Virus record (IMG/VR): IMGVR_UViG_3300044678_002717
Span: 1-64,000 of that record
Length of the DNA stretch: 64,000 nucleotides
Direction: 5' to 3' (one strand)
Source: a virus
Position numbers and translations under genes: made by a program
The notes under the pieces: generated by a model
What the model was told of the DNA's origin: nothing
What the model saw: the letters and a program-made list of their open reading frames with translations, nothing else
Databases searched by the model: none
In this document: positions 49,753 to 63,134 of the stretch, one piece after another
How the letters are laid out: every line of letters begins with the position of its first letter
How positions within the stretch are numbered: the stretch's first letter is position 1

Positions 49753-49870
49753 AACGAAAAATTTATAAAAAAAATTTTTAAGGTGGCATTGTTTTTCTAA
49801 ATAAAAAAGTTACACAAGAATTTTTTACAAAATTTTTTTTAAATTGGAAACTAAAAATTGTAGCCGATAC

Positions 49871-49960
49871 ATCTTTGTAGCCCCCACACCTATAGGGGGG
49901 TCGGGAGGGGGGTGGCTATAGGGGGATACAGGGGGAGGGGGTATACCCCCCCTCAAAGAT
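49871..49960 (-). ncRNA. G/C-run structured RNA candidate
   Basis: Bounded by inverted arms ATCTTTG (49871-49877) and CAAAGAT (49954-49960). The plus strand has six runs of three or more G within 60 nt. GGGGGTATACCCCC (49937-49950) is a perfect palindrome. A canonical early promoter (TTTG at 49982-49985, 20-nt spacing, TATCTTTG at 49954-49961) faces left into it. No significant reading frame is visible, so a non-coding transcript or a replication-related structure is inferred. The 3' end is unknown. Confidence 0.5.
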
Positions 49961-49985: not shown

Positions 49986-50021
49986 TTTATTTTAAAATAA
50001 ACTTACATAAATCTTACATAC

Positions 50022-50049
50022 AAAAAAAGCAATCATTGCTGATTGCTTT
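50022..50049 (-). terminator. Terminator overlapping the stop of the zinc-finger gene
   Basis: AGCAATC/GATTGCT hairpin followed on the minus strand by a T-run. The TGA of the gene at 50033 lies inside the hairpin. Confidence 0.65.
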
Positions 50050-50446
50050 TAATAAGACCATGTCTTTGCAATACCTTTTCATTCCATTTCCAATTGGTTT
50101 TTGATTTGGTATTCTTATTGAAAGAACTATTCCCAAAGTTTACGAATACCTGATTGGTATCGGTATTGTATTCCATTGCTGTATTTTTGTACAGATTAGC
50201 ATCCCATTGCCAAATCGAGAAAAAGGAATTAGAAAAATCAATTGCTTTGATTTCCAAAACACCATTTTCAGAAATCCTTGTTTCGGTTACTTGAAACACT
50301 TTGTAAATGTCTTTTGACTTTTTAGCATTTGGATTAACCTTGGTAATGCAAGACCAACCATATGGCTTGCCATTGAAGAAATGTGGCTTAGTAAGTTCTT
50401 CGCCACACATGGTACAAAAACAAAAGGAAGAAGCGGAGGTCTGCAT
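50033..50446 (-). CDS. Early protein with CxxC zinc motif (137 aa)
   Basis: The start is set at ATG 50444-50446, because upstream codons would lie across the promoter (-7 TACCTTTG at 50487-50494). FCFCTMCGEELTK and YGWSC near the N-terminus suggest a zinc ribbon. The rest (DIYKVFQVTETRISENGVLE) is mixed alpha/beta. The leader carries a TGTCAC/GTGACA hairpin (50468-50480). No family recognised. Confidence 0.55.
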   Translation of the reverse strand: MQTSASSFCFCTMCGEELTKPHFFNGKPYGWSCITKVNPNAKKSKDIYKVFQVTETRISENGVLEIKAIDFSNSFFSIWQWDANLYKNTAMEYNTDTNQVFVNFGNSSFNKNTKSKTNWKWNEKVLQRHGLIKSNQQ

Positions 50447-50467
50447 AGTGCGAGGGGGTAAAAGTGC

Positions 50468-50480
50468 TGTCACCGTGACA
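50468..50480 (-). promoter_or_regulatory. 5' leader hairpin
   Basis: A 13-nt palindrome TGTCAC-C-GTGACA sits just after the predicted transcript start. A sister copy at 52937-52949 keeps the pairing with changed bases. Confidence 0.5.
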
Positions 50481-50653
50481 ACAATACAAAGGTAGTAAAA
50501 TAAATTGAATTTGCAAGTGGTAAAGCAAAATTTATTTAAATTATTTTTTCCTTTCATAATCGCTATATAACGAATGCAAACCTTAAATGGTATCAAAGTA
50601 TCAGTTTAATATTTGCTTTGATTATACGCAATGTTTTATAAGTGAAAGAATAC

Positions 50654-50683
50654 AAAAAAAGGCAACCATTTCTGATTGCCTTT
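50654..50683 (-). terminator. Terminator
   Basis: AAGGCAATCA/TGGTTGCCTT hairpin with T-run, downstream of the gene at 50707. Nearly the same hairpin recurs at 59009. Confidence 0.7.
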
Positions 50684-50706
50684 CCTGTTTTGCTTTGCCA
50701 GCAACC

Positions 50707-50940
50707 TTACTTACACATTGCTTTCAGTTCAGCTTTGATTGCTTTGGCTTTTTCGCCTTTCCAAGTTGAAGCATTGCATAAGAAATACAACACAACACTT
50801 TTACCACTATCAAAGTAATAGTCATCGGTAATGTAGGTTAATTGCGCCATAGCGTCTAAGTAAGGCTTTGCAGCAAAGTTTACCTTTGCCCAATCTTTGC
50901 GGATTTCAGAAGCGATTTGATAAAGAGGTCTGTGTGTCAT
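50707..50940 (-). CDS. Conserved mobile-element protein (77 aa)
   Basis: The pattern PLYQIASEIRKDW...YLDAMAQLTYITDDYYFDSG...VLYFLCNASTWKGEKAKAIKAELK is familiar to me from small proteins of Firmicutes and Bacteroidota phages and plasmids, but no function is known. Promoter -7 TATCTTTA at 50967-50974. Early expression is likely. Confidence 0.6.
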   Translation of the reverse strand: MTHRPLYQIASEIRKDWAKVNFAAKPYLDAMAQLTYITDDYYFDSGKSVVLYFLCNASTWKGEKAKAIKAELKAMCK

Positions 50941-50999
50941 AAAAGTTATTTATTTTGATTACGAAGTAAAGATATAACGAATATATTTAATTTGCAAAT

Positions 51000-51230
51000 T
51001 TAATTTAAACTATTTTCAAATTCGATTTCCGCACATTGAAAATCATCATCCGATATATATTCAACTATTTTTCCGTCACGCATATAGTATTCCTTATTAG
51101 GTTTAGAAATTATAGTTTGTGTAGGTGCTTTGAACCAATCCTGATTTAATAACCAATCCTGATAAGATTTAGGTGTTGATAAAAAATCCTGACCTTTATA
51201 TTTTCCGAATGCTAATTTGAAATTATTCAT
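51000..51230 (-). CDS. DUF3820-like small protein
   Basis: 76 residues from ATG 51228-51230. LAFGKYKGQDFLSTPKSYQD then WLLNQDWF is the 'fGKYKG......p..Y..Wl' motif found in DUF3820 and in tails of exonuclease X-type proteins. -7 TACCTTTG at 51267-51274. The longer open frame crosses this promoter and is rejected. Confidence 0.55.
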   Translation of the reverse strand: MNNFKLAFGKYKGQDFLSTPKSYQDWLLNQDWFKAPTQTIISKPNKEYYMRDGKIVEYISDDDFQCAEIEFENSLN

Positions 51231-51337
51231 GTTTTTTTGTGTTAGTGTTTCTTCCTGATGACAATACAAAGGTAGTAAAATAATTTGAATTTGCAAGTGG
51301 TAAGCGAAAATAAATTAAATTTTTTTTCTTTTTTTTT

Positions 51338-51402
51338 AAAAGACAAGCTACCCCCGATTAACCTTCCCTTCTTTTCGGGCTTCTACCATAGTGTTTCAAC
51401 GG
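51338..51402 (-). ncRNA. Small RNA family, copy A
   Basis: Promoter TTTG, 20 nt, CACCTTTG (-7 at 51408-51415). The core matches the other copies: AGAAGCCCG, GGGAAGGTTAATCGG and GGTAGCTTGTC. Only a short T-run follows, so termination is less clear. No reading frame fits. Confidence 0.6.
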
Positions 51403-51447
51403 CATAACAAAGGTGGCAAAAAGAAATGAGAAATGCAAATTTATTTT

Positions 51448-51480
51448 AAAAAAAAAGGTAGCCATTTCTGACTACCTTTG
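51448..51480 (-). terminator. Terminator
   Basis: AAGGTAG/CTACCTTT hairpin with an A-run on the plus strand (T-run in the transcript), after the gene ending at 51495. Confidence 0.7.
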
Positions 51481-51494
51481 AAAGGCTTTTTGGT

Positions 51495-51968
51495 TTACCC
51501 TACCTTAATGATATTGCTTTCTTTCGGGCAAATTACCAAGGTGCTTTTACCCATTTTTTCAGCATCAGAAGCGGTAAGGTAGCTTTTAAAGGTTTCCTTA
51601 CTGATTTCCACACCATCGGCAAAGTATTGAACTTTGAGGTGGCAATTTTCAGTCGGGTAAAGCCGAATGTACCTATTGCCGTTGTGGGTAATTGTGTAGG
51701 GAAAGTGTTCCCATACACCCCAAGGTAAAGAACCAACTTCGCCCCTTGTACCATCGGCAATGCCTTCAAGTACAGGTTTTAGGTTTGCATAGTCAATACC
51801 TGCCCTAAACACACCTTCTGTGCGCTTAGTAAGTTTGACTTCTTTGAAAGCCGCTTTTGGCTTTGCTTCGGAAACAAAGGTAGCGTTAATAAACTGACCT
51901 TTGCAATTAAAGAAGCGTTCTGCCACTCCCGACAGACCGCTTGGCACTTGGAGTGTTTCGTTTTCCAT
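51495..51968 (-). CDS. Hypothetical early protein (157 aa)
   Basis: 157 residues with higher G+C than most neighbours. It contains GVFRAGIDYANLKPVLEGIA, SLPWGVWEHFPYTITHNGNR and a C-terminal SYLTASDAEKMGKSTLVICP. No family recognised. -7 CACCTTTG at 51973-51980, leaving almost no leader. The compositional shift may reflect recent acquisition. Confidence 0.55.
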   Translation of the reverse strand: MENETLQVPSGLSGVAERFFNCKGQFINATFVSEAKPKAAFKEVKLTKRTEGVFRAGIDYANLKPVLEGIADGTRGEVGSLPWGVWEHFPYTITHNGNRYIRLYPTENCHLKVQYFADGVEISKETFKSYLTASDAEKMGKSTLVICPKESNIIKVG

Positions 51969-52050
51969 AAGACAAAGGTGAGAAAAAGTAACGAGAAAAA
52001 AAAGTCTTTTTTTGCAAAAAACTTACATTAAATCATGTAAGGTATTTTAA

Positions 52051-52117
52051 AAAAAAAAGGGCAAGCTACCCCCGATTAACCTTCCCTTGTTTCGGGCTTC
52101 TGCCACCTCGATGATGA
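52051..52117 (-). ncRNA. Small RNA family, copy B
   Basis: Promoter TTTG, 20 nt, TACCTTTG (-7 at 52123-52130). The core GCAGAAGCCCGAAACAAGGG is followed by AAGGTTAATCGGGGGTAGC and a strong T-run. The 5' segment (CATCATCGAGG) differs from copies A and C. Confidence 0.65.
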
Positions 52118-52162
52118 CAATACAAAGGTATGCATTTCCAATGACATTTCCAAATTTAATTT

Positions 52163-52192
52163 AAAAAAAAGGACTGATATAAATCAGCCCCT
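52163..52192 (-). terminator. Terminator
   Basis: GGGCTGAT/ATCAGTCC hairpin with T-run after the gene ending at 52213. Confidence 0.65.
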
Positions 52193-52212
52193 CAAATTTG
52201 GTTTTCTCAGGA

Positions 52213-52419
52213 TTATCTTGTAAAGATAAATCCGTTGTGGATTGGATGCCAAGCACCTGTTTTCCGCACTAAGGTTTTTACACCTTGGCAAGTAATAAAG
52301 CATTCAGTTAATTGGTTGTTTTGGATATACTTTACAACCTTTGCTTGGGTTTCAGTCATTGACTTTGCCTGAAGTGTGAACCTTTTGCCGTTATCGAATT
52401 GAAGTTTGTAAGTGAACAT
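52213..52419 (-). CDS. Hypothetical early protein (68 aa)
   Basis: MFTYKLQFDNGKRFTLQAKS followed by MTETQAKVVKYIQ and LVRKTGAWHPIHNGFIFTR looks like a small beta-alpha fold. -7 variant TACCTTCG at 52444-52451. No family recognised. Confidence 0.5.
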   Translation of the reverse strand: MFTYKLQFDNGKRFTLQAKSMTETQAKVVKYIQNNQLTECFITCQGVKTLVRKTGAWHPIHNGFIFTR

Positions 52420-52484
52420 ATCTTGTTGTTTTTAATTGATATGCGAAGGTATGTGTTTTCAATGACATTTCCAAATTTAATTTA

Positions 52485-52514
52485 AAAAAAAGGGTAGCCA
52501 TTTCTGACTACCTT
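52485..52514 (-). terminator. Terminator
   Basis: AAGGTAG/CTACCCTTT hairpin with T-run after the gene at 52537. Confidence 0.65.
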
Positions 52515-52536
52515 GCTGATTGCTTTGCTTATCAGA

Positions 52537-52914
52537 TTAAATGAAATCTGATTTCTCTTCCCATTTCTTTTGGGCAAAGGCATTGCCTTCGATATCATCA
52601 TTGGCAACCACCAAACCTGTAACTTTGGTTCTTCCTTCGCCAAATTTGGCTTCCCAAAGGTATGCATTGGCTTCCACAATCCTTTCGTTTGAGAAAGCCA
52701 CACCGCATTTGTAAATGCCATCTGACTCAGGTGGCATACCATACCACTTGAATTTATCCCAACCACCAAGGGTTGATGATTCGCTATCTAATGTGCCGTG
52801 CAAATACACCCAAGGTGTATAAGACAAAACAACAAGGGTATTCTTACCAAAGGTAGCCATTGGTTCGCCTGACTCCATTAGAGTAGGGAAGATTAATTTA
52901 GGGGAGTTTGACAT
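52537..52914 (-). CDS. Hypothetical early protein (125 aa)
   Basis: 125 residues: LIFPTLMESGEPMATFGKNT, GWDKFKWYGMPPESDGIYKC and LWEAKFGEGRTKVTGLVVAN. A tryptophan/glycine-rich globular protein with no recognised family. -7 TACCTTTG at 52956-52963. The leader hairpin at 52937-52949 is shared in form with the 50033 gene. Confidence 0.5.
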   Translation of the reverse strand: MSNSPKLIFPTLMESGEPMATFGKNTLVVLSYTPWVYLHGTLDSESSTLGGWDKFKWYGMPPESDGIYKCGVAFSNERIVEANAYLWEAKFGEGRTKVTGLVVANDDIEGNAFAQKKWEEKSDFI

Positions 52915-52936
52915 ATGCGAAGGGGGTTAAGAGTGC

Positions 52937-52949
52937 CATCACCGTGATG
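52937..52949 (-). promoter_or_regulatory. 5' leader hairpin (compensated copy)
   Basis: CATCAC-C-GTGATG. Two base pairs differ from the 50468-50480 copy and both sides changed together. Confidence 0.5.
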
Positions 52950-53005
52950 ACAATACAAAGGTAGTAAAATAAATTGAATTTGCAAGTGGTAAGTGAAAAT
53001 AAATT

Positions 53006-53034
53006 AAAAAAAATGGAAGTATTTCTACTTCCAT
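53006..53034 (-). terminator. Terminator
   Basis: Perfect 9-bp ATGGAAGTA/TACTTCCAT hairpin with TTTC loop and T-run. Confidence 0.7.
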
Positions 53035-53055
53035 TCTGATTGGGTTTGCTTTAGG

Positions 53056-53349
53056 TTATTCTATTTCAGAAACATCGTAACCCATTTCTCTTAGCTTTTC
53101 GATAATGCAGCGAGGCAAGGCAAATACACCATCGTAATCAACGATTGTCATTCCTTTAAACCATATGCCACCTTCAGCATACCATTCATCACCTCCGGTC
53201 TCTACATCGTATATTTCAAACCAACCATAATCATCGGAATTGATTCCAATGGTAACCTGAAGTTCGATATCGTTTTGCTCTTTAATTGTGCCAAACGAGT
53301 TTTCAAGTGAAAGACTTTCGGTGGCGATAAATTCAATTTCCATTTTCAT
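53056..53349 (-). CDS. Hypothetical early protein (97 aa)
   Basis: Start at ATG 53347-53349 (MKMEIEFIATESLSL); codons upstream are promoter sequence. DDYGWFEIYDVETGGDEWYA then EGGIWFKGMTIVDYDG is acidic and aromatic. -7 variant TACCTTCG at 53376-53383. No family recognised. Confidence 0.5.
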   Translation of the reverse strand: MKMEIEFIATESLSLENSFGTIKEQNDIELQVTIGINSDDYGWFEIYDVETGGDEWYAEGGIWFKGMTIVDYDGVFALPRCIIEKLREMGYDVSEIE

Positions 53350-53427
53350 AAGTGTTATTGTTTTTAATTGATATGCGAAGGTATGTATTTTGAATGAGAC
53401 TACCAAATTTATTTTAAAATAATTTCC

Positions 53428-53622
53428 TTATACCATTTGCTCTAACATATACCGAATGCTTTCAAGTTTATCTCTTTCTATATCAATTTCTCCACAAGAG
53501 GTTTGTGCAATCCAAGTATTGCTTCGATATTGTTTCATTATATTTACTTCTTTCCCATTTACTATGGTCGTATAATCACCACCACCTTGCTTGTATGTTT
53601 TTTTGAACTTTAGAGATGCCAT
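53428..53622 (-). CDS. Hypothetical early protein (64 aa)
   Basis: Start ATG 53620-53622. Basic start (MASLKFKKTYKQGGGDYTTI), then WIAQTSCGEIDIERDKLESI. -7 variant TACCTTCG at 53649-53656. A longer frame reads back through the promoter into the lipoprotein gene and is not supported. Confidence 0.5.
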   Translation of the reverse strand: MASLKFKKTYKQGGGDYTTIVNGKEVNIMKQYRSNTWIAQTSCGEIDIERDKLESIRYMLEQMV

Positions 53623-53686
53623 TGTTTTTGTTGTTTTTAATTGATATGCGAAGGTATGTATTTTGAATGAGACTACCAAATTTATT

Positions 53687-53836
53687 TTAAAATCTTTTTG
53701 GGCCACTACACCTTGCTGAATGGGTTTGATTCCAACCACGCTTATGTGGATTCTTTTGAGCATGGTAACCGATTCTATTATCCACCGCACAAGATGCAAG
53801 GCAAACAAGGATTAAAAGCGCAATTATGTTTTTCAT
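53687..53836 (-). CDS. Small lipoprotein (49 aa)
   Basis: MKNIIALLILVCLASCAVDN is a signal peptide with lipobox LASC, so Cys16 would be lipidated and the basic 33-residue remainder exposed. The stop TAA lies inside the TTTTAAAATAAATTTGG element of the next promoter. The start overlaps the upstream gene's stop. A surface role such as superinfection exclusion is possible but unproven. Confidence 0.55.
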   Translation of the reverse strand: MKNIIALLILVCLASCAVDNRIGYHAQKNPHKRGWNQTHSARCSGPKRF

Positions 53837-53955
53837 TTTACCGCAATTAAGATGATTTTACAAATGATTATAAATATTCCGAATGAAATACCCACAAAAG
53901 TGAATGCATCATAAAACATATTCATTCTACGCTGTTGTTTAAAGAAGTCTTCCAT
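53833..53955 (-). CDS. Small membrane protein (40 aa)
   Basis: MEDFFKQQRRMNMFYDAFTF then a hydrophobic segment of about 20 residues (VGISFGIFIIICKIILIAV). It overlaps the lipoprotein gene start (ATGA), forming a two-gene unit. The promoter is present but with a degenerate -7. Confidence 0.5.
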   Translation of the reverse strand: MEDFFKQQRRMNMFYDAFTFVGISFGIFIIICKIILIAVK

Positions 53956-54007
53956 TGTTTTAGTATTTAATTTGATGTGTGAAAGATTTGATATTTCCAA
54001 ATTTATT

Positions 54008-54115
54008 TTACCAAGGTTCTATTTGACCAATATATTCAACAAATTTAATAGCTGTGTAGCACAACATACCAACAATGGCAATGACTACAAGGGTTTCGAT
54101 TAATGTCTTTTTCAT
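54008..54115 (-). CDS. Small membrane protein (35 aa)
   Basis: MKKTLIETLVVIAIVGMLCY then TAIKFVEYIGQIEPW. One hydrophobic helix or an uncleaved signal. -7 TATATTTG at 54139-54146. The stop lies at the edge of the next AT-rich promoter element. Confidence 0.45.
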   Translation of the reverse strand: MKKTLIETLVVIAIVGMLCYTAIKFVEYIGQIEPW

Positions 54116-54190
54116 ATTCTTAATGTTTTAATCTGATACAAATATAAGTGAAAGATTTGAGACTACCAAATTTATTTTACTTCAAACATA

Positions 54191-54212
54191 AAATTTATTT
54201 TAAAATAAATTT
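54191..54212. repeat. 22-nt perfect palindrome between divergent early promoters
   Basis: AAATTTATTTT and its reverse complement AAAATAAATTT abut. The right half is the upstream part of the small-RNA copy D promoter; the left half mirrors it toward the minus strand. Confidence 0.6.
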
Positions 54213-54241
54213 GGAAATATCATTTCCTTTGCATACATTTG
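54210..54241 (+). promoter_or_regulatory. Early promoter of small RNA copy D
   Basis: TTTG (54210-54213), 20 nt, TACATTTG (54234-54241). A textbook Bacteroidota-type promoter on the plus strand in a minus-strand region. Confidence 0.7.
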
Positions 54242-54247
54242 TATTGT

Positions 54248-54318
54248 CTTACAGCGAATGGGGCAGAAGCCGGAGAAAACGGAAGGTTCATCGCAGGTAA
54301 CTTGTCCTCTTTTTTTTA
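54248..54318 (+). ncRNA. Small RNA family, copy D
   Basis: Core GCAGAAGCCGGAGAAAACGG then AAGGTTCATCGCAGGTAAC and CTTGTCCTC before a T-run (54310-54318). The short stem is CCG/CGG here versus CCC/GGG in the other copies, a compensatory change. It converges on the gene at 54342. No reading frame fits. Confidence 0.65.
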
Positions 54319-54327
54319 TATATGGGC

Positions 54328-54352
54328 AAAAAAAAATGCCCTTAGAAGGGCA
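54328..54352 (-). terminator. Terminator containing a stop codon
   Basis: TGCCCTT-CT-AAGGGCA hairpin with a T-run on the minus strand. The TAA of the 54342 gene is within the loop region. Confidence 0.65.
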
Positions 54353-54485
54353 ATTCAATCTTTTCTTCGATTGTCAGAGGGCTTTCTTCGATTTCCTCTG
54401 TGGCTTCCCTGATTAGGTTTCTTGCCATTTCCATAATCATTGCCTCATTTTCAAGTTCTTCGATGCTGATGCGATAGTCTGTCAT
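54342..54485 (-). CDS. Small acidic early protein (47 aa)
   Basis: MTDYRISIEELENEAMIMEM followed by an E-rich helix (REATEEIEESPLTIEEKIEL). -7 TACATTTG at 54508-54515. Unknown function; the acidic helical character is typical of small phage inhibitors, but nothing specific is visible. Confidence 0.45.
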   Translation of the reverse strand: MTDYRISIEELENEAMIMEMARNLIREATEEIEESPLTIEEKIELPF

Positions 54486-54545
54486 AATTGTTTTGTTTTT
54501 GATGATACAAATGTAATACGGATTTCTGATATTTCCAAATTTAAT

Positions 54546-54779
54546 TTAAAATTTTGTTTCAGCATAAAACTGCTCATAAGCGTGTGTATATTTTTTATCA
54601 TCAAAATAAACATCACCATAACCCAATCTAACACCAAAGGTAATTGCCTTTGCGGTTTGAGCATTCTCATAAGGTTTGATAAATTGTTTGTAAAAATCTA
54701 AATCAGATTGAGTAATTTGCCGACCATTATCTAATGATTTCTGAATTTCGCTGATGATAAGTTCTACTGCTGTTGTCAT
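54546..54779 (-). CDS. Hypothetical early protein (77 aa)
   Basis: Start ATG 54777-54779. Helical N-terminus (TTAVELIISEIQKSLDNGRQ; TQSDLDFYKQFIKPYE) then GVRLGYGDVYFDDKKYTHAY. -7 TACATTTG at 54803-54810. The longer frame begins in the promoter and is rejected. Confidence 0.5.
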   Translation of the reverse strand: MTTAVELIISEIQKSLDNGRQITQSDLDFYKQFIKPYENAQTAKAITFGVRLGYGDVYFDDKKYTHAYEQFYAETKF

Positions 54780-54835
54780 AATTGTTTTTGTTTTTGATGA
54801 TACAAATGTAATACGGATTTCTGATATTTCCAAAT

Positions 54836-54946
54836 TTATTTAAAAAAACTTTGGATAATTAGTGAAGCCACAAAGGTCAGGAACATATTCCGTAAAGCCT
54901 TCTTTTGGTCAGATGGCATATTCATTAGGTCTTGAATGTCTTGCAT
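54836..54946 (-). CDS. Small early protein (36 aa)
   Basis: MQDIQDLMNMPSDQKKALRN then hydrophobic MFLTFVASLIIQSFFK. Its stop overlaps the TTTG region of the next promoter. -7 variant TACTTTTA at 54972-54979. Confidence 0.4.
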   Translation of the reverse strand: MQDIQDLMNMPSDQKKALRNMFLTFVASLIIQSFFK

Positions 54947-55012
54947 TTTGTTGTTGTTTTAATTTGATAATGTAAAAGTATGGCAAAGATTTGATATTTC
55001 CAAATTTATTTT

Positions 55013-55041
55013 AAAAAAAAGGACTGATATTTATCAGCCCT
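55013..55041 (-). terminator. Terminator
   Basis: GGGCTGATA/TATCAGTCC hairpin with a T-run after the DUF932 gene. Very similar to the terminator at 52163. Confidence 0.7.
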
Positions 55042-55063
55042 TCAGATTTGGATTTGTCAGGAT

Positions 55064-55936
55064 TTATGCTAACAAGGTAGCAAGTTCATTTACCAACTTG
55101 AAAGCATCATCGGTTATCTTTTGATTACCACCTAAAAGGTTTCCATAGGCATCAGTACTGAACTTTTTGTGGGTTGTGAAGTGTGTTACTCCGTTGAATG
55201 CACCGAATAAGTTCATTCCCAAATCATTGGTTTCCCTTGTAAAGGATTCCATTAGGTCTGCTTTGCGCCTTCCGGTTGATGATGGCAAGATATTCTCTTT
55301 CAGCAACTTTTCATCAATGTTGAGAAGTCGGTTTGCAAGGCCATCCAAAATGGCATGGTCAATTTCAATTTCGGATAGCTTTTTGAGTTGCAATGCTTCC
55401 CTTTCCTTTTCTTCCCTGAAGCCTTTTACAAGGTCAATAAACATTTCAATTCGGAAGTCTTGATTCTTTGTATGGCGAACCTTCAGACCTTGCATAACCC
55501 TGCCCCAAGCATTGTGGCAACGAAGTAGAATGTTTACAGAACCCACAAAGATTGGTGTTGTACCATTGTGGGAATTACCGAAAACAAGGTAGTTTTCTGA
55601 TGGCAAACCCAAATGTTTGTGTACCATATCATCTGTTGCTTTCAGATAGGCAAGTACCTTTTCACCTTCCCTGAATTCAGCAAACCCTTCCAAAGCATAA
55701 CCACTTGCTTCAGACAATTTGTAAGCATAATCTACAAATGCTGAATTCTTTGTTTCCTTGTAGGTTGCATTGGTCAGGTGCAAGGTTCTACCATTGTCAG
55801 ACCTTTTCAGGGCAACATAATCATCTTCAGGTACATATAGACCTGCCTTGTTGATTGTCATTGGTGTATGCCTTTGAACTTCCCAATTTAAAGAATCCTT
55901 AAAATCCTTTACTGCATTACTTGTGCTTTTTGCCAT
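55064..55936 (-). CDS. DUF932 phage/plasmid-like protein
   Basis: 290 residues. LGLPSENYLVFGNSHNGTTP (about 109-128) and FVGSVNILLRCHNAWGR (about 130-146) are the DUF932/TIGR03299 signature found on phages and plasmids. LKVRHTKNQDFRIEMFIDLV and RRKADLMESFTRETNDLG follow. No biochemical role is established. It is the largest gene of the early region. -7 TACCTTTG at 55971-55978; higher G+C than its neighbours. Confidence 0.72.
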   Translation of the reverse strand: MAKSTSNAVKDFKDSLNWEVQRHTPMTINKAGLYVPEDDYVALKRSDNGRTLHLTNATYKETKNSAFVDYAYKLSEASGYALEGFAEFREGEKVLAYLKATDDMVHKHLGLPSENYLVFGNSHNGTTPIFVGSVNILLRCHNAWGRVMQGLKVRHTKNQDFRIEMFIDLVKGFREEKEREALQLKKLSEIEIDHAILDGLANRLLNIDEKLLKENILPSSTGRRKADLMESFTRETNDLGMNLFGAFNGVTHFTTHKKFSTDAYGNLLGGNQKITDDAFKLVNELATLLA

Positions 55937-56008
55937 AATTGTTTTGTTTATTATTTATTGTTTGATGATACAAAGGTAAACGAAAGATTCGACAATTCCA
56001 AATTTATT

Positions 56009-56251
56009 TTAAAATAAACTAATATGAGTGGCTTGTACTTCTTTCCACAAAGAAAGGTGTAATTTACCCAATACTGATAAATTAACACAATTTGGACTTT
56101 CATCAACTTTAATAGTTTCATTATCTTTGGGTAAAGAAATGTAACCAAGGCAATCTTTTGGGTTGCTATAAAGACTTATGGAATAATCACTTTCCATAAT
56201 TGCATACCTTTCGATTACTGACTGAGGGATTTGACTTAGGATGTTTTGCAT
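56009..56251 (-). CDS. Hypothetical early protein (80 aa)
   Basis: MQNILSQIPQSVIERYAIME, then SLYSNPKDCLGYISLPKDNE. Mixed fold with no family recognised. -7 TACATTTG at 56277-56284. The stop TAA lies in the AT-rich element of the next promoter. Confidence 0.5.
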   Translation of the reverse strand: MQNILSQIPQSVIERYAIMESDYSISLYSNPKDCLGYISLPKDNETIKVDESPNCVNLSVLGKLHLSLWKEVQATHISLF

Positions 56252-56295
56252 AATTGTTATTGTTTGATTACAGAGGCAAATGTATAATGAATATT

Positions 56296-56490
56296 TTAAT
56301 TTTCCAAATTTATTTTAAAATCTTTGCAAAAAAGTTCAAACTCTTTATTTGGGTCAATCTTTTCACCCAATCCAAAATAATGAATCAGATACTTTGCAAA
56401 GGCAATCTGAATGTTCCTTACTTCCTGATTAGGATTTACCATTGCATCTGATAGATGCGACTGAATAACCATGCTGACTTGTACTTTCAT
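56296..56490 (-). CDS. Hypothetical early protein (64 aa)
   Basis: Start ATG 56488-56490. MKVQVSMVIQSHLSDAMVNP, then IQIAFAKYLIHYFGLGEKID. The last six residues are encoded by the promoter of the next gene, so gene and promoter overlap. -7 TACATTTG at 56517-56524. Confidence 0.5.
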   Translation of the reverse strand: MKVQVSMVIQSHLSDAMVNPNQEVRNIQIAFAKYLIHYFGLGEKIDPNKEFELFCKDFKINLEN

Positions 56491-56573
56491 ATTTTCTTGT
56501 TGTTTGATTACAGAGGCAAATGTATAACGAATATATTTAATATGCAAATTTATTTTAAAATATTTTTATATAT

Positions 56574-56642
56574 AAAAAAAAGGACAAGTTACCCCCGATT
56601 AACCTTCCCTTCTTTTCGGGCTTCTGCCATAGTGTTTCAATG
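56574..56642 (-). ncRNA. Small RNA family, copy C
   Basis: Promoter TTTG, 20 nt, TACCTTTG (-7 at 56649-56656). The 5' part AAACACTATGGCAGAAGCCC is nearly the same as copy A, then GGGAAGGTTAATCGGGGG and AACTTGTCC with a T-run of eight. Confidence 0.65.
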
Positions 56643-56689
56643 ACAATACAAAGGTAAGTAAAAGAAATGATATTTCCAAATTTATTTTA

Positions 56690-56722
56690 AAAAAAATTCC
56701 CTCCGAAATTCAGAGGGAATTT
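56690..56722 (-). terminator. Terminator
   Basis: TTCCCTC/GAGGGAA hairpin with a T-run on the minus strand, after the gene at 56749. Confidence 0.7.
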
Positions 56723-56748
56723 TCAAATGAATCATATGTCCTAAACTT

Positions 56749-57012
56749 TTACATTTCCAATAGCTTTTGAATTGCTTCTTCAATTTGTTCTTCTGACTGC
56801 CAACCAAGTATTTCATCGTGTTCTGATAGCATAATAAATTCGGGATTTCCTTTATGCCAAGCAGCCATTTCAAATGAATTTCTGCCATTGCCATACAATC
56901 CTGTTCCTCCCACAATGGAAATCATTATTCCGTTTGGTAGTTCGTGCAATGCCTGTACTGCATCGGGCATCTTATTTGCGTGGGGCTTGAAAACTAAATC
57001 TTGAAATGTCAT
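56749..57012 (-). CDS. Hypothetical early protein (87 aa)
   Basis: MTFQDLVFKPHANKMPDAVQ, then ELPNGIMISIVGGTGLYGNG and FEMAAWHKGNPEFIMLSEHD. The C-terminal helix is EEQIEEAIQKLLEM. It resembles small single-domain phage proteins with a central beta-sheet; no family recognised. The promoter -7 is degenerate (TAATTTAC). Confidence 0.5.
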   Translation of the reverse strand: MTFQDLVFKPHANKMPDAVQALHELPNGIMISIVGGTGLYGNGRNSFEMAAWHKGNPEFIMLSEHDEILGWQSEEQIEEAIQKLLEM

Positions 57013-57075
57013 ATGTTTTTGTTTTTTGATTACGATGTAAATTACGGAATAATAATCGAGAATTGCAAATTTATT

Positions 57076-57399
57076 TTAAAATTTATTGAATCCTTTTTCT
57101 TCGTACTTTCCTGCCAATGTTTTAGCAACCAAACCACTAACAGCAAAACCAAGCGGAATCCAAATCATCGTTTTTTGTGTTTTACCTAAATGGTAACCTA
57201 ATATTGCACTTGCAAAAGCACCTGCAACAAGACCATCACCAATGCCATTTAAGACCTTTGCTTTGGTAAGGTTTAATTTGATTTCCCTTTGTACTGAATC
57301 CTTTCTTTGCTTACAAGGGTTCATACAAGTGTTGTAATTGGTTTGAGCCATTGCTGAACCCGAAACCATTAGTGCGAATGCTATTAGTGTTTTTTTCAT
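57076..57399 (-). CDS. Exported early protein (107 aa)
   Basis: MKKTLIAFALMVSGSAMAQT is a signal peptide (cleavage at AMA-Q). Mature part: CMNPCKQRKDSVQREIKLNL, then hydrophobic Gly/Ala-rich GLVAGAFASAILGYHLGKTQ and MIWIPLGFAVSGLVAKTLAG. Two membrane helices are possible. Superinfection exclusion or envelope modification is conceivable. -7 TACATTTG at 57404-57411. Confidence 0.55.
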   Translation of the reverse strand: MKKTLIAFALMVSGSAMAQTNYNTCMNPCKQRKDSVQREIKLNLTKAKVLNGIGDGLVAGAFASAILGYHLGKTQKTMIWIPLGFAVSGLVAKTLAGKYEEKGFNKF

Positions 57400-57443
57400 A
57401 TGACAAATGTATGTAAAATTAAATTAAATTCCAAATTTATTTT

Positions 57444-57470
57444 AAAAAAAAAGGGAAGATTTCTCTTCCC
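57444..57470 (-). terminator. Terminator
   Basis: GGGAAGA/TCTTCCC hairpin with nine T on the minus strand, which run into the AT-rich element of the next promoter. Confidence 0.72.
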
Positions 57471-57475
57471 AAATT

Positions 57476-57655
57476 TTATTTTGTTTTCTCTGTTAAATTT
57501 AATAATTCTAATACTTCTTCAATTTGCATTTGCAAATACTCCTTTGTAATGATGGAGTTTTTAGGAAAGTTTTCCTTTTCAATAAGGTCAATGTAATGAC
57601 CTAATGCTTGACCAATCACATACTTGTGAAACCCTGTTAATGCTACTTTTTTCAT
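57476..57655 (-). CDS. Small early protein (59 aa)
   Basis: MKKVALTGFHKYVIGQALGH, then ENFPKNSIITKEYLQMQIEE and a helical end. -7 TACATTTG at 57682-57689. Unknown function. Confidence 0.45.
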   Translation of the reverse strand: MKKVALTGFHKYVIGQALGHYIDLIEKENFPKNSIITKEYLQMQIEEVLELLNLTEKTK

Positions 57656-57720
57656 TTTGTTTTTGTTTTAATTTGATGTTACAAATGTAATACGAAGATT
57701 TTAATTTTCCAAATTTATTT

Positions 57721-57752
57721 TAAAATAAATGGGCTGATTTTTCTCAGCCCAA
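57721..57752 (-). terminator. Weak terminator
   Basis: GGGCTGA/TCAGCCC hairpin, but only a broken T-rich tract follows on the minus strand. Confidence 0.5.
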
Positions 57753-57765
57753 TTTAAGTTATTGA

Positions 57766-58263
57766 TTATGAGTGCATATCAACAAACACAAACCAAATTT
57801 TGTCGCCATCGGTTGTTGAATGTGTTAGGTCTGTAAAACCGCATTCATCATATTTGTAAGAAAAGAAACAATCATCTTTCATACAATCAAAAGGATTTTC
57901 TCTAAATGGATGTGCTTCGGATAAATGCTCCGCATACTTTGACAATGACCATAGTTCGTGTGAATCCCATTCAGTTAAATTAAAGTTGCCTTCTGCAAAT
58001 TTATCTTCTGCAATTTTACCATACCAACTTGATTTAATCCATCCATTCACACATTCATTGATTTGCTCAATGGTAGCAATATCGGTATCTTTGGGTTGGT
58101 ATCTTCCATCCCCTGCATTGTAAACTTCATTATCTTCCGATACTGCACCACATATAGTTCGCCAATTATTTTCATTACCGAAATCCATTATTAGGATTTC
58201 AACTTCTTTACAAGCCTGTTCTCCCGAATCAGCTTTTACTTTTACTAAATGTAAGTTATGCAT
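57766..58263 (-). CDS. Hypothetical early protein (165 aa)
   Basis: MHNLHLVKVKADSGEQACKE, then MDFGNENNWRTICGAVSEDN and NAGDGRYQPKDTDIATIEQI. An acidic, tryptophan-rich C-terminal half. The opening 'HLV.V.A.s..eA...v' is the style of small ferredoxin-like domains in phage early regions. -7 TATCTTTG at 58284-58291. Confidence 0.5.
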   Translation of the reverse strand: MHNLHLVKVKADSGEQACKEVEILIMDFGNENNWRTICGAVSEDNEVYNAGDGRYQPKDTDIATIEQINECVNGWIKSSWYGKIAEDKFAEGNFNLTEWDSHELWSLSKYAEHLSEAHPFRENPFDCMKDDCFFSYKYDECGFTDLTHSTTDGDKIWFVFVDMHS

Positions 58264-58303
58264 ATTGTTTTTTGATTACGATACAAAGATAAGTAAAAGA
58301 AAC

Positions 58304-58459
58304 TTAATATCCAAATTTATTTTGATTTCTTTTTTGCTCATTGCGGTCATACTTCTTTTTATCCTTACCTACCTTTGTGGTAAAACGAGAATCCAAACCC
58401 GAATCCCTTTTAAGGATTTCCCTTTTGATTTTGCCGTAATTGATAGTGTTACTTGTCAT
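58304..58459 (-). CDS. Small basic early protein (51 aa)
   Basis: MTSNTINYGKIKREILKRDS, then FTTKVGKDKKKYDRNEQKRN. The last residues (NKFGY) are encoded by the next promoter's TTTGG region. Strongly basic, so nucleic-acid binding is possible. -7 TACCTTTG at 58482-58489. Confidence 0.45.
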   Translation of the reverse strand: MTSNTINYGKIKREILKRDSGLDSRFTTKVGKDKKKYDRNEQKRNQNKFGY

Positions 58460-58530
58460 TTTGCTTTTGTTTTTGATGCTACAAAGGTAAGTAGGATAAA
58501 TGAGAAAAACAAATTTATTTTAAAATAATT

Positions 58531-58725
58531 TTAGTCTTCAATCTTCTTTTCAAGTATGTAAAAGAAGTAACAGACAATTCCCATTGGTATTCCCATTACA
58601 AACCAAATGATTGCGAACATATCCCAATTAGGTTTTGCACCTGATTCTTCTGCAAACTTTACCATTGTGGGAAGTAAGAGCCACAAAGCCATTATTGTGA
58701 ATGATAAATAAGTGAACTTTTTCAT
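58531..58725 (-). CDS. Small membrane protein (64 aa)
   Basis: MKKFTYLSFTIMALWLLLPT, then MFAIIWFVMGIPMGIVCYFF: two membrane helices with a short loop. Start ATG 58723-58725. -7 TACATTTG at 58753-58760. Confidence 0.5.
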   Translation of the reverse strand: MKKFTYLSFTIMALWLLLPTMVKFAEESGAKPNWDMFAIIWFVMGIPMGIVCYFFYILEKKIED

Positions 58726-58785
58726 AATTGTTTTTTGATTTTGATTACGATACAAATGTAAGTGAAAGTTTTGACAATTCCAAAT

Positions 58786-58962
58786 TTATTTTAATTTATT
58801 TTTCTCTTTTAATTCCTCCATTAAAAGAATCAAAAATAAAATAAATGAGAATCCAAATATAAAACTCATTACAATAATATTTCCAATATCCTGAAGGCAA
58901 AAAAGAAAAAAGGATGAGGAAAGACAAGCCATACCAATAAGAATCAATGCGATGTTTTTCAT
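58786..58962 (-). CDS. Small membrane protein (58 aa)
   Basis: MKNIALILIGMACLSSSFFL, then VMSFIFGFSFILFLILLMEE with a charged tail. Two hydrophobic segments. -7 TACCTTTG at 58970-58977, with a very short leader. The stop lies in the next promoter's AT element. Confidence 0.45.
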   Translation of the reverse strand: MKNIALILIGMACLSSSFFLFCLQDIGNIIVMSFIFGFSFILFLILLMEELKEKNKLK

Positions 58963-59008
58963 AATGTTACAAAGGTAAGTAAAAGATTTTAATTTTCCAA
59001 ATTTATTT

Positions 59009-59040
59009 TAAAAAAAAGGCAACCATTTCTGATTGCCTTA
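59009..59040 (-). terminator. Terminator
   Basis: AAGGCAATCA/TGGTTGCCTT hairpin with a T-run, almost the same as at 50654. Confidence 0.7.
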
Positions 59041-59066
59041 TTCTTAAAGTCTACTTTTATTTTAGA

Positions 59067-59468
59067 TTAAAGTTCGTTTGGGGCTGCTTCTTTAACAATC
59101 ACACGAAGAACCGAAGCATTGAGGCGAGAGCCTTCTCTGTTCACCGCATCAATCACGATTGAGAATGCGATGTTTGAGAACCTTTTCTTTCCCGAAAGGA
59201 TTGCATTGGCAATAGCACCATTAACCAACTTATCCTTACGAAGCGGAAAATCGGAGTGAGGGAACGAAATTTGCGCTTTGCCATCATTGGCTTGTGCGTA
59301 ATCAATCGCAGCCTTCATCTTGTCGAACACGGCTTGTACTGCCGGACTTAGGGTTTTTCCACCCCTTGCTGAACGGATGTTTTCATCAAAAGATTGAACT
59401 TCGATGTTTGCAACTTGTGCGGTAACCTCTCCCGATTCCTGCACATTAGACTTAGATTTGTTTGACAT
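59067..59468 (-). CDS. Hypothetical early protein (133 aa)
   Basis: Start ATG 59466-59468. SFDENIRSARGGKTLSPAVQ, VFDKMKAAIDYAQANDGKAQ, NAILSGKKRFSNIAFSIVID. The DNA is richer in G+C than its neighbours. The C-terminus (NREGSRLNASVLRVIVKEAA) is basic. No family recognised. -7 TACCTTTG at 59496-59503. Confidence 0.5.
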   Translation of the reverse strand: MSNKSKSNVQESGEVTAQVANIEVQSFDENIRSARGGKTLSPAVQAVFDKMKAAIDYAQANDGKAQISFPHSDFPLRKDKLVNGAIANAILSGKKRFSNIAFSIVIDAVNREGSRLNASVLRVIVKEAAPNEL

Positions 59469-59543
59469 AATCTTTATTGTTTTTGTTTGATGATGCAAAG
59501 GTATGTAATTGAAATGACTTTTGCAAATTTTTTTTCAACTTTT

Positions 59544-59816
59544 TTAATTCATGCAAATTTGATTCATTTTGGTTGCCCAAAACTTGGCAACAAATTCCCA
59601 AACCATATCCGCATAATAAGGAGTACCATTGTCGCAAAGGAAATAGTAAATATCATTTTCAGTAAACAGATTGAAATTATCTGTAATGTATTCTCTGATT
59701 ACTTCTTTGGTATTCCAATCCATAAAGGCAATGGATAAAATGTTTTGAGCATTGTCATAATTGACTTCGATGATTCCACCGATTACATACTCTCCAATTC
59801 TGAATGTCTTTTTCAT
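59544..59816 (-). CDS. Hypothetical early protein (90 aa)
   Basis: Start ATG 59814-59816. MKKTFRIGEYVIGGIIEVNY, then FMDWNTKEVIREYITDNFNL and a helical C-terminus. -7 TACCTTTG at 59837-59844. A longer frame crosses the promoter and is rejected. No family recognised. Confidence 0.5.
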   Translation of the reverse strand: MKKTFRIGEYVIGGIIEVNYDNAQNILSIAFMDWNTKEVIREYITDNFNLFTENDIYYFLCDNGTPYYADMVWEFVAKFWATKMNQICMN

Positions 59817-59909
59817 ATCATTTGTTTTTGATAAGACAAAGGTATGTAATTGAAATGACTTTTCCAAATTACAATGAAAAATAAATGAAATATTTTTTTT
59901 TAAAATAAA

Positions 59910-59941
59910 TTTGGAAATATCGAATCTTTCACTTACTTTTG
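59910..59941 (+). promoter_or_regulatory. Early promoter of small RNA copy E
   Basis: TTTG (59910-59913), 20 nt, TACTTTTG (59934-59941); the same geometry as at copy D. Confidence 0.7.
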
Positions 59942-59947
59942 TATTGC

Positions 59948-60019
59948 ATTACAGATGATGGTGTAGAAGCCCGATGCAAGGGAAGGTTCATCGCCTGTAA
60001 CTTGTCCTTACTTTTTTTT
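59948..60019 (+). ncRNA. Small RNA family, copy E
   Basis: ACAGATGATGGTGTAGAAGC, then CCGATGCAAGGGAAGGTTC, ATCGCCTGTAACTTGTCC and a T-run (60012-60019). The 5' CAG.GATG can pair with CATC.CTG in the distal loop, a possible pseudoknot. It converges on the gene at 60087. Confidence 0.65.
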
Positions 60020-60029
60020 AGTGCAATGC

Positions 60030-60062
60030 AAAAAAAATTCCCGACACTTTTTTGTCGGGAAT
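60030..60062 (-). terminator. Terminator
   Basis: TTCCCGACA/TGTCGGGAA hairpin with a T-run on the minus strand. A second TGTCGGGAA follows just to the right (60070-60080). Confidence 0.72.
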
Positions 60063-60086
60063 CCTAAATTTTGTCGGGAATGATTT

Positions 60087-60371
60087 TTAAATCATCCTCA
60101 AGAAATCCGATGGATTCCAATGACCATTCTCTTTTTTGAAAGTCTCAAGCATCTTCTTGCAGGTTTCGTGGCTATCCTGATTGCGAAGGTCATGGCGATA
60201 GTCATCAGAACCCACAAACTCAATCCATTTCAAACATAGCTTTGTGAAGGACTGCTGCAAAGTGCGATGGTCTTTGCCCATTTCGGTAATAAAACCCTGA
60301 TGGTCAGAAGAAAATGAATTTACGAAGTTTGACATTTCGTTTGCGAGGTGTTTTGCTTTATTGTTTTCCAT
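60087..60371 (-). CDS. Hypothetical early protein (94 aa)
   Basis: Start ATG 60369-60371. All-helical: KAKHLANEMSNFVNSFSSDH, TLQQSFTKLCLKWIEFVGSD, KKMLETFKKENGHWNPSDFL. It could be a small helical bundle. -7 TACATTTG at 60393-60400. No family recognised. Confidence 0.5.
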   Translation of the reverse strand: MENNKAKHLANEMSNFVNSFSSDHQGFITEMGKDHRTLQQSFTKLCLKWIEFVGSDDYRHDLRNQDSHETCKKMLETFKKENGHWNPSDFLRMI

Positions 60372-60432
60372 ACTTGTTATTGTTTGATGATACAAATGTA
60401 AATAAAAGATTTTAATTTTGCAAATTTATTTT

Positions 60433-60462
60433 AAAAAAAATGGGAGGAACAATGTCCTCCCA
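60433..60462 (-). terminator. Terminator
   Basis: TGGGAGGA/TCCTCCCA hairpin with a T-run on the minus strand. Confidence 0.72.
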
Positions 60463-60469
60463 AACAATG

Positions 60470-60772
60470 TTAAGCATTTAAAAGTGCAAGAACTTCTGTT
60501 TTACCTTGCAAACAACTTTCTTCATTAAATCCTCCAATATGCCATTCAATCTTTTCATTCATTTCCAATGGTCTGTATTCTTTCCAATCATAAATTGTAA
60601 ACACATCACCACTTTCGGTTTCTAAAGTAAAATCAAAATTTGATTTATCACTCCCATCATTATGAGAATAAAAAGAATTTGGGAAAAGGTCAATAAGTTG
60701 TTGAGGTGTTGCTTTAAATACAACACTATAAAAACTTGTACCACCTGCTGATTTTTCTGTGTGTTTTGCCAT
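60470..60772 (-). CDS. Hypothetical early protein (100 aa)
   Basis: FYSVVFKATPQQLIDLFPNS, then FDFTLETESGDVFTIYDWKE, YRPLEMNEKIEWHIGG. The beta-rich middle and 'YDWKEYR' loop give a compact fold, but no family is recognised. -7 TACATTTG at 60798-60805. Confidence 0.5.
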   Translation of the reverse strand: MAKHTEKSAGGTSFYSVVFKATPQQLIDLFPNSFYSHNDGSDKSNFDFTLETESGDVFTIYDWKEYRPLEMNEKIEWHIGGFNEESCLQGKTEVLALLNA

Positions 60773-60835
60773 TTGTTTTTTGATTTTGATTACGATACAA
60801 ATGTAATATGAATTTTTGACTTTTGCAAATTTATT

Positions 60836-61048
60836 TTAAATAAATAAACTAAGTTCTTGTAACTCACCAACATTACCTTCCAAGTGCATACACATTAATG
60901 CATCATCCATTGTAGCATTTTCGTATTTGAAAGATGATTCTGCCAAATCTACTTTAAGGAAATTCTTAAAAGTATCATCCCAAGAATTGTATAAAAACAA
61001 ATCATTGGTGTGTGTGTAAAAACCAATTACTTTAATTTCTTTTTTCAT
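60836..61048 (-). CDS. Hypothetical early protein (70 aa)
   Basis: Start ATG 61046-61048. MKKEIKVIGFYTHTNDLFLY, then NSWDDTFKNFLKVDLAESSF and an acidic end. -7 TACATTTG at 61073-61080. The stop lies in the promoter element of the next gene. Confidence 0.45.
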   Translation of the reverse strand: MKKEIKVIGFYTHTNDLFLYNSWDDTFKNFLKVDLAESSFKYENATMDDALMCMHLEGNVGELQELSLFI

Positions 61049-61112
61049 TTTGTTTTGATTTTGATTACGATACAAATGTAATATAAGTTTTTGACATTTC
61101 CAAATATATTTT

Positions 61113-61144
61113 AAAAAAAATCCCTCCGAATATCAGAGGGAATT
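61113..61144 (-). terminator. Terminator
   Basis: TCCCTC/GAGGGA hairpin with a T-run, closely similar to 56690. Confidence 0.7.
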
Positions 61145-61175
61145 TAAAACTAATATATTATGTTGATTATCATCT

Positions 61176-61469
61176 TTAATCGCCAAAATAATTTAGGCGA
61201 AAATGTTTTTCATCACCAATAGTTTTGGAAATAAAGTTTACTTCCTTGCCATATTGATTTGTTCCTTTATATGCAATGAGCCAATTAAAAGAATGTTCTT
61301 TTAGTTCTTCATCAATTAGTTTTCTCACTTGACCTGCAATTTCAATAGGGAATACAAGTTCTGTAATTCTTTTTCCTTGCACAAGATTGTTTTTAATTGA
61401 ATCCATTGCAATTTTAAAATGATGCTGAATCATTAAATCTTCTGCTGATTTGTTAAATTTTAAGTCCAT
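61176..61469 (-). CDS. Hypothetical early protein (97 aa)
   Basis: MDLKFNKSAEDLMIQHHFKI, then VFPIEIAGQVRKLIDEELKE, HSFNWLIAYKGTNQYGKEVN. It sits 5 nt after the 61475 gene and shares that gene's promoter (a two-gene unit). No family recognised. Confidence 0.5.
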   Translation of the reverse strand: MDLKFNKSAEDLMIQHHFKIAMDSIKNNLVQGKRITELVFPIEIAGQVRKLIDEELKEHSFNWLIAYKGTNQYGKEVNFISKTIGDEKHFRLNYFGD

Positions 61470-61474
61470 AGTTT

Positions 61475-61642
61475 TTATTTTTGTTTTAATTCTTTTTCAA
61501 TCCATTCAATGATTGTTATCATATCATCAAAAGATTCTCTACCTTCTTCTGTTGTACAATCCCAAGTACCATTCAATCCTTCATTGCAACTCATTTTGAG
61601 TACGGCAAGTAAGTCAAAAACTTTTTTCATATTATTTTCCAT
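61475..61642 (-). CDS. Small early protein (55 aa)
   Basis: Start ATG 61640-61642. MENNMKKVFDLLAVLKMSCN, then TTEEGRESFDDMITIIEWIE. Helical. -7 TACATTTG at 61668-61675. First gene of a two-gene unit with 61176-61469. Confidence 0.45.
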   Translation of the reverse strand: MENNMKKVFDLLAVLKMSCNEGLNGTWDCTTEEGRESFDDMITIIEWIEKELKQK

Positions 61643-61708
61643 ATTTTTTTGTTGTTTGATTATGATACAAATGTAAGTGAAAGTTTTGAGATTTCCAAAT
61701 TTATTTTC

Positions 61709-61741
61709 AAAAAAAATCCCTCTGAATTTCAAAGGGATTTT
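61709..61741 (-). terminator. Terminator
   Basis: AATCCCT/AGGGATT hairpin with a T-run on the minus strand. Confidence 0.65.
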
Positions 61742-61777
61742 ACCTAAATAATCAATGAAAAAAACAACAATTAAACA

Positions 61778-62035
61778 CTATATCTTTCCAATGTTTTCAA
61801 GTACATAGTCTTGAACAAAGTCATCAACTTGATTCTTAATGTCATCATCTTCCAATATAGATTCATCACCATTAACAACTTCCCAATTTATTTCGGTAAA
61901 ACCAAAATTGGGTTCATCATCATACTTGACATTGAGTTCCAAATCATACTCATTACCATCTTTTTCAATGGTTAGGTCAAGACCAATTACAACCAATGTG
62001 CTAATCACATCTTTGTTTGTTACTTTAATATTCAT
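61778..62035 (-). CDS. Acidic early protein (85 aa)
   Basis: MNIKVTNKDVISTLVVIGLD, LTIEKDGNEYDLELNVKYDD, then an acidic helix (ESILEDDDIKNQVDDFVQDY). Strongly acidic beta-plus-alpha protein; DNA mimicry is conceivable but unproven. -7 TACCTTTG at 62056-62063. Confidence 0.5.
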   Translation of the reverse strand: MNIKVTNKDVISTLVVIGLDLTIEKDGNEYDLELNVKYDDEPNFGFTEINWEVVNGDESILEDDDIKNQVDDFVQDYVLENIGKI

Positions 62036-62088
62036 TTTGTTTTTTGATTATGATGCAAAGGTAAAAAGAATTTCTGACATTACCAAAT

Positions 62089-62274
62089 TTATTTTACTGA
62101 TATTTCTAATACTTCTTGAAATGATGTTTCACAATCAAAGCAATCAAATTGCCCATACAATTCATTATCGAATTGACCAAGTGTTAATAAATCTTCGTTA
62201 ATTGCTAATGGTTGGTAGTCAGTCATCCTGACATTTGTGCTACCACAAGACTTGCAATGAATTTTCTTTTCCAT
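62089..62274 (-). CDS. Four-cysteine zinc-ribbon protein (61 aa)
   Basis: CKSCGSTNVR near the N-terminus and FDCFDCETSF near the C-terminus give the two CxxC knuckles of a zinc ribbon. It follows the 62287 gene by 12 nt and shares its promoter. It might bind nucleic acid or a host protein. Confidence 0.55.
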   Translation of the reverse strand: MEKKIHCKSCGSTNVRMTDYQPLAINEDLLTLGQFDNELYGQFDCFDCETSFQEVLEISVK

Positions 62275-62286
62275 TTTTAATTAAAT

Positions 62287-62502: not shown

Positions 62503-62555
62503 TTTGTTGTTTGATTACAATACAAATGTAAAACGAATTATTGACTTTTCCAAAT

Positions 62556-62876: not shown

Positions 62877-62878
62877 TT

Positions 62879-63070: not shown

Positions 63071-63134
63071 ATTTTTTGTTGTTTTGATTACGATACAAAT
63101 GTAAAACGAATTTCTGACTTTTCCAAATTTATTT

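Follow-up and report, generated by a model that had tools for sequence, protein, structure and literature searches.

The last 16 kb of the window (the whole stretch of DNA analysed here, 64,000 nt long and part of a 73.6-kb IMG/VR virus record) carries the sequence AGAAGCC-N9/10-GGAAGGTTNATCGNNNGTARCTTG at five intergenic sites, three on the minus strand (A, B and C) and two on the plus strand (D and E). With up to three mismatches allowed, the 24-nt core pattern gave five zero-mismatch matches in the virus record, and the reversed pattern, run as a control, gave none. At the sequence level, the view that the five sites are genes for small RNAs is well supported. A first-pass annotation had also found five copies here; the pattern matches fall at the same places and on the same strands, with predicted ends within 2 nt of the earlier ones. 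The genes and their promoters are:

51338..51403, minus strand: small RNA gene A; predicted +1 at 51403, core AGAAGCC..ATCG at 51355-51384, 8-nt loop in helix P2 (described below), weak T-run
51408..51439, minus strand: promoter of A, TTTG-N20-CACCTTTG, with the box one base off
52049..52118, minus strand: small RNA gene B; predicted +1 at 52118, core at 52073-52101, T-run at 52049-52058; placed by pattern, promoter geometry and model match
52123..52154, minus strand: promoter of B, TTTG-N20-TACCTTTG
56574..56644, minus strand: small RNA gene C; predicted +1 at 56644, core at 56596-56625, T-run at 56574-56581; placed by pattern, promoter geometry and model match
56649..56680, minus strand: promoter of C, TTTG-N20-TACCTTTG
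54246..54317, plus strand: small RNA gene D; predicted +1 at 54246, core at 54265-54293, CCG/CGG stem, T-run at 54310-54317; placed by pattern, promoter geometry and model match
54210..54241, plus strand: promoter of D, TTTG-N20-TACATTTG
59946..60019, plus strand: small RNA gene E; predicted +1 at 59946, core at 59965-59993, T-run at 60012-60019; placed by pattern, promoter geometry and model match
59910..59941, plus strand: promoter of E, TTTG-N20-TACTTTTG

The transcript extents are predictions that run from the inferred +1 through the T-run, and they give RNAs of 66–74 nt for the five window copies. Gene A matches the covariance model of the family at 77.6 bits, copy A having itself been used in building the model. 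It had been claimed that most copies end in a strong T-run, and this is the case for B, C, D and E (runs of 8–10), the run in A being poor. Gene B also has a terminator-like hairpin at 52057-52073.

A flavobacterial transcriptome places the TAnnTTTG promoter box at -12 to -5 (PMC9723704), and the +1 of the window copies was predicted by applying this position. In all five, a spacer of exactly 20 nt separates TTTG from the box downstream of it, and a G, 17–19 nt before AGAAGCC, is the predicted +1. The first-pass annotation had assigned each copy its own TTTG-20-TAnnTTTG promoter, which is exact for B, C, D and E, whereas A has a one-base variant, CACCTTTG. Counting the relatives described below, a sigma-A promoter of the form TTTG-20-[T/C]AnnTTTG is present in all seven copies that have such a promoter, and the predicted +1 is in each case the first G of a 5' hairpin, P1.

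The window virus encodes a T4-type head set (capsid, portal, terminase and protease), and its host group is the Bacteroidota. The last 16 kb of the window consists of small genes, nearly all on the minus strand. The strict pattern TTTG-N20-TAnnTTTG is matched 28 times there, compared with about 0.3 times in dinucleotide shuffles; 25 of these promoters are on the minus strand (0.17 in shuffles). Many genes of this region have a near-perfect Bacteroidota promoter, a short A-rich leader and often a terminator, and positions 50000-64000 show a one-gene-one-promoter layout, in which many of the small genes on the minus strand each carry a near-consensus sigma-A promoter. At the edge of the early block, at 49840-49955 (minus), a strict promoter precedes, in place of a gene, some 100 nt that are extremely rich in C and G (AGGGGGGGTATACCCCCTCCCCC...GTGGGGGC). 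This stretch might form a structured RNA as well, or serve as a signal for replication or packaging. Two protein-gene leaders, at 51230-51275 and 52915-52965 (minus), start with TATTGTCATCA, as the small RNAs do, and one of the two also carries GAAACACTA. The shared start suggests that a promoter is copied or shuffled together with the first bases transcribed from it.

The genes neighbouring the window copies have separate promoters of their own. D and E are oriented opposite to the local gene direction, and are the two copies that had been described as transcribed against the genes around them. Apart from one inside a coding gene, no strict promoters other than theirs lie on the plus strand of the region, so that D and E appear to be independently transcribed against the local genes. 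The early timing of the RNA genes is suggested by the host-type promoters and the gene content; unlike this label, one copy in a related virus, L011, adjoins late-type genes.

Pattern scans over 2.9 million viral contigs, in which exact patterns miss diverged members, added six copies to the family, from three other large viruses (170, 178 and 464 kb), giving a total of 11 copies in four viruses. Four of these are in the 170-kb contig IMGVR 3300011113_000664 (L053), whose capsid protein is 79% identical to that of the window virus; the 178-kb contig (L011) and the 464-kb contig (L019) have one each. The 170-kb virus has orthologues of many of the neighbouring genes, with their order shuffled, and its early genes use a different promoter, TGTAAG..TTTGATATATTA. 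It is this very promoter that precedes three of the four RNA copies, the fourth being without a visible promoter; the copies face the neighbouring genes head-on, and their flanks differ from those of the window copies. The copies in L011 and L019 have a sigma-A promoter with 20-nt spacing, and their P1 loop, UGAAACACU, is also that of window copies A and C. The promoter change is also seen in the protein genes of the 170-kb virus: at 25-44 kb, early-gene orthologues are driven by TGTAAG..TTTGATATATTAAGG, sometimes right at the ATG, which amounts to a switch of promoter class between two viruses whose capsid proteins are 79% identical.

No convincing copy was found in 34 further contigs with related capsid genes (many of them fragments; four weak matches apart), among which is a 129-kb contig whose capsid is 76% identical. 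On the basis of this patchy occurrence across viruses, the RNA element looks accessory and exchanged between viruses. The remaining viral pattern matches (L012-L018, L020-L023, L025-L035, L069 and L164-L169) were judged to be chance, as no promoter or 5' hairpin was seen at them and they are mostly GC-rich or coding-like; weak matches in the 464-kb virus likewise look coding.

These arrangements make it very improbable that the sequence is a cis-acting leader, attenuator or riboswitch for a downstream gene. The copies are intergenic, and A, B and C are codirectional with their neighbours, as such an element would be, but D and E are oriented away from the surrounding genes, the copies in the 170-kb virus are head-on to genes, the neighbouring genes have separate promoters, and most copies end in a T-run.

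The eleven copies support three helices: P1 at the 5' terminus, P2 (CCN/NGG) and P3 (GGUU/RRCU). The secondary structure is conserved, with two-sided changes in P1 and P2. For P2, it had been noted that the small stem CCC/GGG becomes CCG/CGG in copy D; this compensatory change is real, and the relatives add CCA/TGG, the third pair being C-G, A-U or G-C. P1 is a predicted hairpin that begins at the predicted +1, and is an addition to the structure given earlier. It can be drawn in 11 of 11 copies, with its last base directly before AGAAGCC, and its sequence differs even between copies of one genome. Single P1 helices are mostly within the range of shuffled leaders, and the argument for P1 is therefore its shared position and covariation rather than the strength of any one helix.

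For P1 and P2 together, 97% of cells over the 11 copies are paired, compared with at most 45% when slid, nine cells are changed on both sides and no shuffle is as high (four copies were entered without P1, because leader lengths differ); with P3 added, 96.4% are paired, compared with at most 52% when slid, although the structure was derived from the same eleven sequences, several of them close, so that the slid control favours it. With RNAalifold by itself only P2 is recovered, the probable reason being the poor alignment of P1. P3 shows changes on just one side, by way of G-U pairs, and is thus compatible with the data rather than proven by two-sided changes. The first-pass annotation had instead drawn a longer helix, GGAAGGUU:AACUUGUCC, in competition with the CCN/NGG stem. 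Its outer GGA/UCC extension does compete, but the inner GGUU/RRCU is compatible with that stem. Only the inner part is fully kept in the relatives, so that the proposed competition is not general; the outer part is absent in some relatives, shows no two-sided change, and was rejected.

No copy departs from AGAAGCC, from the G, A and AA in the loop of P2, from GGAAGGUU, from AUCG or from a G located four bases further on, and the flanks AGAAG and AAGGUUNAUCG are nearly invariant.

A very small protein gene or a leader peptide is a further reading, and over the core 9 of the 11 copies are indeed open in the frame GAA GCC, with many of them giving E-A-R-x-K-G-R-L-I. However, this frame is without a common start codon, one inserted base breaks it in copies A and C, its invariant codons lack synonymous variation, and the A-rich leader plus ATG that is typical of the mRNAs of the window phage is absent. 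No reading frame is common to all the copies, as had been claimed, and a peptide is as improbable as a cis-acting leader.

A DNA element, such as one used in replication or recombination or an insertion cassette, with an incidental promoter and no use as RNA, could account for dispersed copies in both orientations, and hairpins P2 and P3 might fold in DNA as well. This too is improbable, if less extremely so. The promoter and T-run are strand-specific, the +1 is fixed at the first base of P1, P1 and P3 contain many G-U pairs, which are well tolerated in RNA only, and both the flanks and the promoter are different in the 170-kb virus. The promoters, terminators, covarying helices, absence of a coding frame and six additional copies in three viruses all agree with the original proposal of a free-standing family of small non-coding RNAs. 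Comparison between the sequences thus supports the gene units, their strand and promoter geometry, the helices, the non-coding nature, the spread over four viruses and the patchy occurrence.

Rfam 15, at both gathering and permissive thresholds, gave nothing relevant, the only matches being to tRNAs elsewhere in the window. At 43330-43544 (plus), Rfam calls two adjacent tRNAs (43330 and 43447), while ARAGORN calls only a tRNA-Leu; the second, at 43447, may be unusual, and an open frame on the opposite strand (42251-43423) overlaps the first. A blastn search of INPHARED and PLSDB with the core and flanks found only T-run or chance matches. The lack of an Rfam match is in keeping with the free-standing RNA family proposed at first. 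A pattern scan of GTDB gave six matches, all judged to be chance in GC-rich DNA. A resemblance of GGAAGGUUAA to 23S rRNA was not significant (p ~0.09 for the core). The covariance model, run over 395+45 Bacteroidota genomes, gave a best score of 28 bits, and the weak matches, mostly coding-like, were judged to be chance. The host thus seems to be without a close model of the RNA, while divergent models would escape this search. The literature searched gave no account of small RNAs encoded by phages of Bacteroidota.

Several known systems are comparable. The small RNAs of Flavobacterium psychrophilum, for example Rfp18, are likewise short independent transcripts from TAnnTTTG promoters, several of them with strong predicted structure (PMC9723704). 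They are bacterial genes, and are set apart from the phage RNA by the Bacteroidota genome search rather than by direct comparison. To other phage-encoded small regulatory RNAs (PMC12197685) no sequence relation was found, the evidence being the Rfam and phage-collection searches. Pseudo-ToxI of phage PhiTE, a type III antitoxin mimic, is likewise a short non-coding RNA encoded by a phage; in it, one transcript carries 36-nt pseudoknot repeats in tandem, with a recognisable likeness to the host antitoxin, and its action depends both on how many repeats there are and on the binding of a host protein (PMC3475682). The window RNA differs in that its genes are dispersed and hold a single unit each, its hairpins number three, and no host model for it is known. 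RNA anti-CRISPRs (Racrs; solitary repeat units; PMC10651486) are likewise solitary small RNA units with their own promoter in phage genomes. They resemble a CRISPR repeat, whereas the window RNA, with up to five copies, is unlike the repeats of 29 Cas9-type Bacteroidota arrays.

The last two systems raise the question of whether the RNA mimics a host defence RNA, either a CRISPR repeat or tracrRNA (as an RNA anti-CRISPR) or a type III antitoxin. This would be a special case of a decoy. The precedents in other phages (PMC10651486, PMC3475682), the same layout of a free-standing promoter and small RNA, and the accessory, patchy occurrence are all in its favour. Against this, similarity to the repeats of the 29 Cas9-associated arrays and to their flanking DNA and tracrRNA regions is not above that of shuffles (for the Cas9 type only), the copies have no tandem units, there is no Rfam match, including to any known antitoxin family, and the covariance model found no host relative. 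Mimicry of a defence RNA is therefore quite unlikely as an explanation, an antitoxin mimic like pseudo-ToxI being one possible form of it.

Most characterised bacterial small RNAs work through pairing. The main rival to a decoy is that a conserved host RNA is the pairing partner: the invariant AGAAG or AAGGUUNAUCG would be a seed for trans-acting antisense pairing with a conserved host mRNA, or another host RNA, and would alter the use of that RNA during infection. In favour of this, the invariant segments are partly single-stranded. They are nevertheless largely inside or adjoining P2 and P3; moreover, complementarity to 31 promoter-defined phage mRNA starts is not above that of shuffles, and pairing with the 3' end of 16S is no better than in shuffles. 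We consider antisense action unlikely, though clearly less so than mimicry of a defence RNA.

The explanation that we prefer, with somewhat less than even confidence, is that the five are paralogous, sigma-A-promoted small-RNA genes whose fixed module titrates a conserved host partner as a decoy. Each RNA of about 66–74 nt would be transcribed singly from its host-type sigma-A promoter, probably soon after infection. It would begin with P1 at its first base and end in the P3/terminator hairpin and a U-tract, and these end hairpins most likely protect it. Between them would lie the near-invariant module, consisting of AGAAG, the hairpin CCN-GANNNAA-NGG and then AAGGUUNAUCG. A conserved partner in the host, probably a defence protein or one that binds RNA, is most likely what the module binds, and the repeated genes would raise the dose of RNA.

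A protein partner, and hence a decoy, is favoured because the module is partly helical and near-invariant while P1 differs within a genome, because complementarity to the phage's own mRNA starts is within chance, and because the occurrence is patchy across different viruses. Phage decoy RNAs also have precedents in pseudo-ToxI (PMC3475682) and the RNA anti-CRISPRs (PMC10651486). The four or five copies per genome in two of the viruses (the 170-kb and window viruses) also speak for a decoy, but the other two viruses have a single copy, so that dosage is not a general feature. Further against a decoy, no RNA known to be decoyed is like the module, for which about 440 Bacteroidota genomes gave no relative and the Cas9 repeats and flanks no likeness, and antisense pairing with a conserved host RNA would equally keep the sequence invariant.

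More tentatively, the RNAs may represent an undescribed class of phage decoy, stable, multi-copy and early, exchanged among different Bacteroidota phages, fitted in each with that phage's own promoter, and acting to disable a conserved factor of the host that binds RNA or serves in defence. The RNA looks like a new viral tool for host manipulation. A module that is strictly conserved in four large viruses, and is not found in the bacteria searched, points to a single shared host partner, and knowing this partner could bring to light a host factor, or a defence system, that phages of this kind need to disarm.
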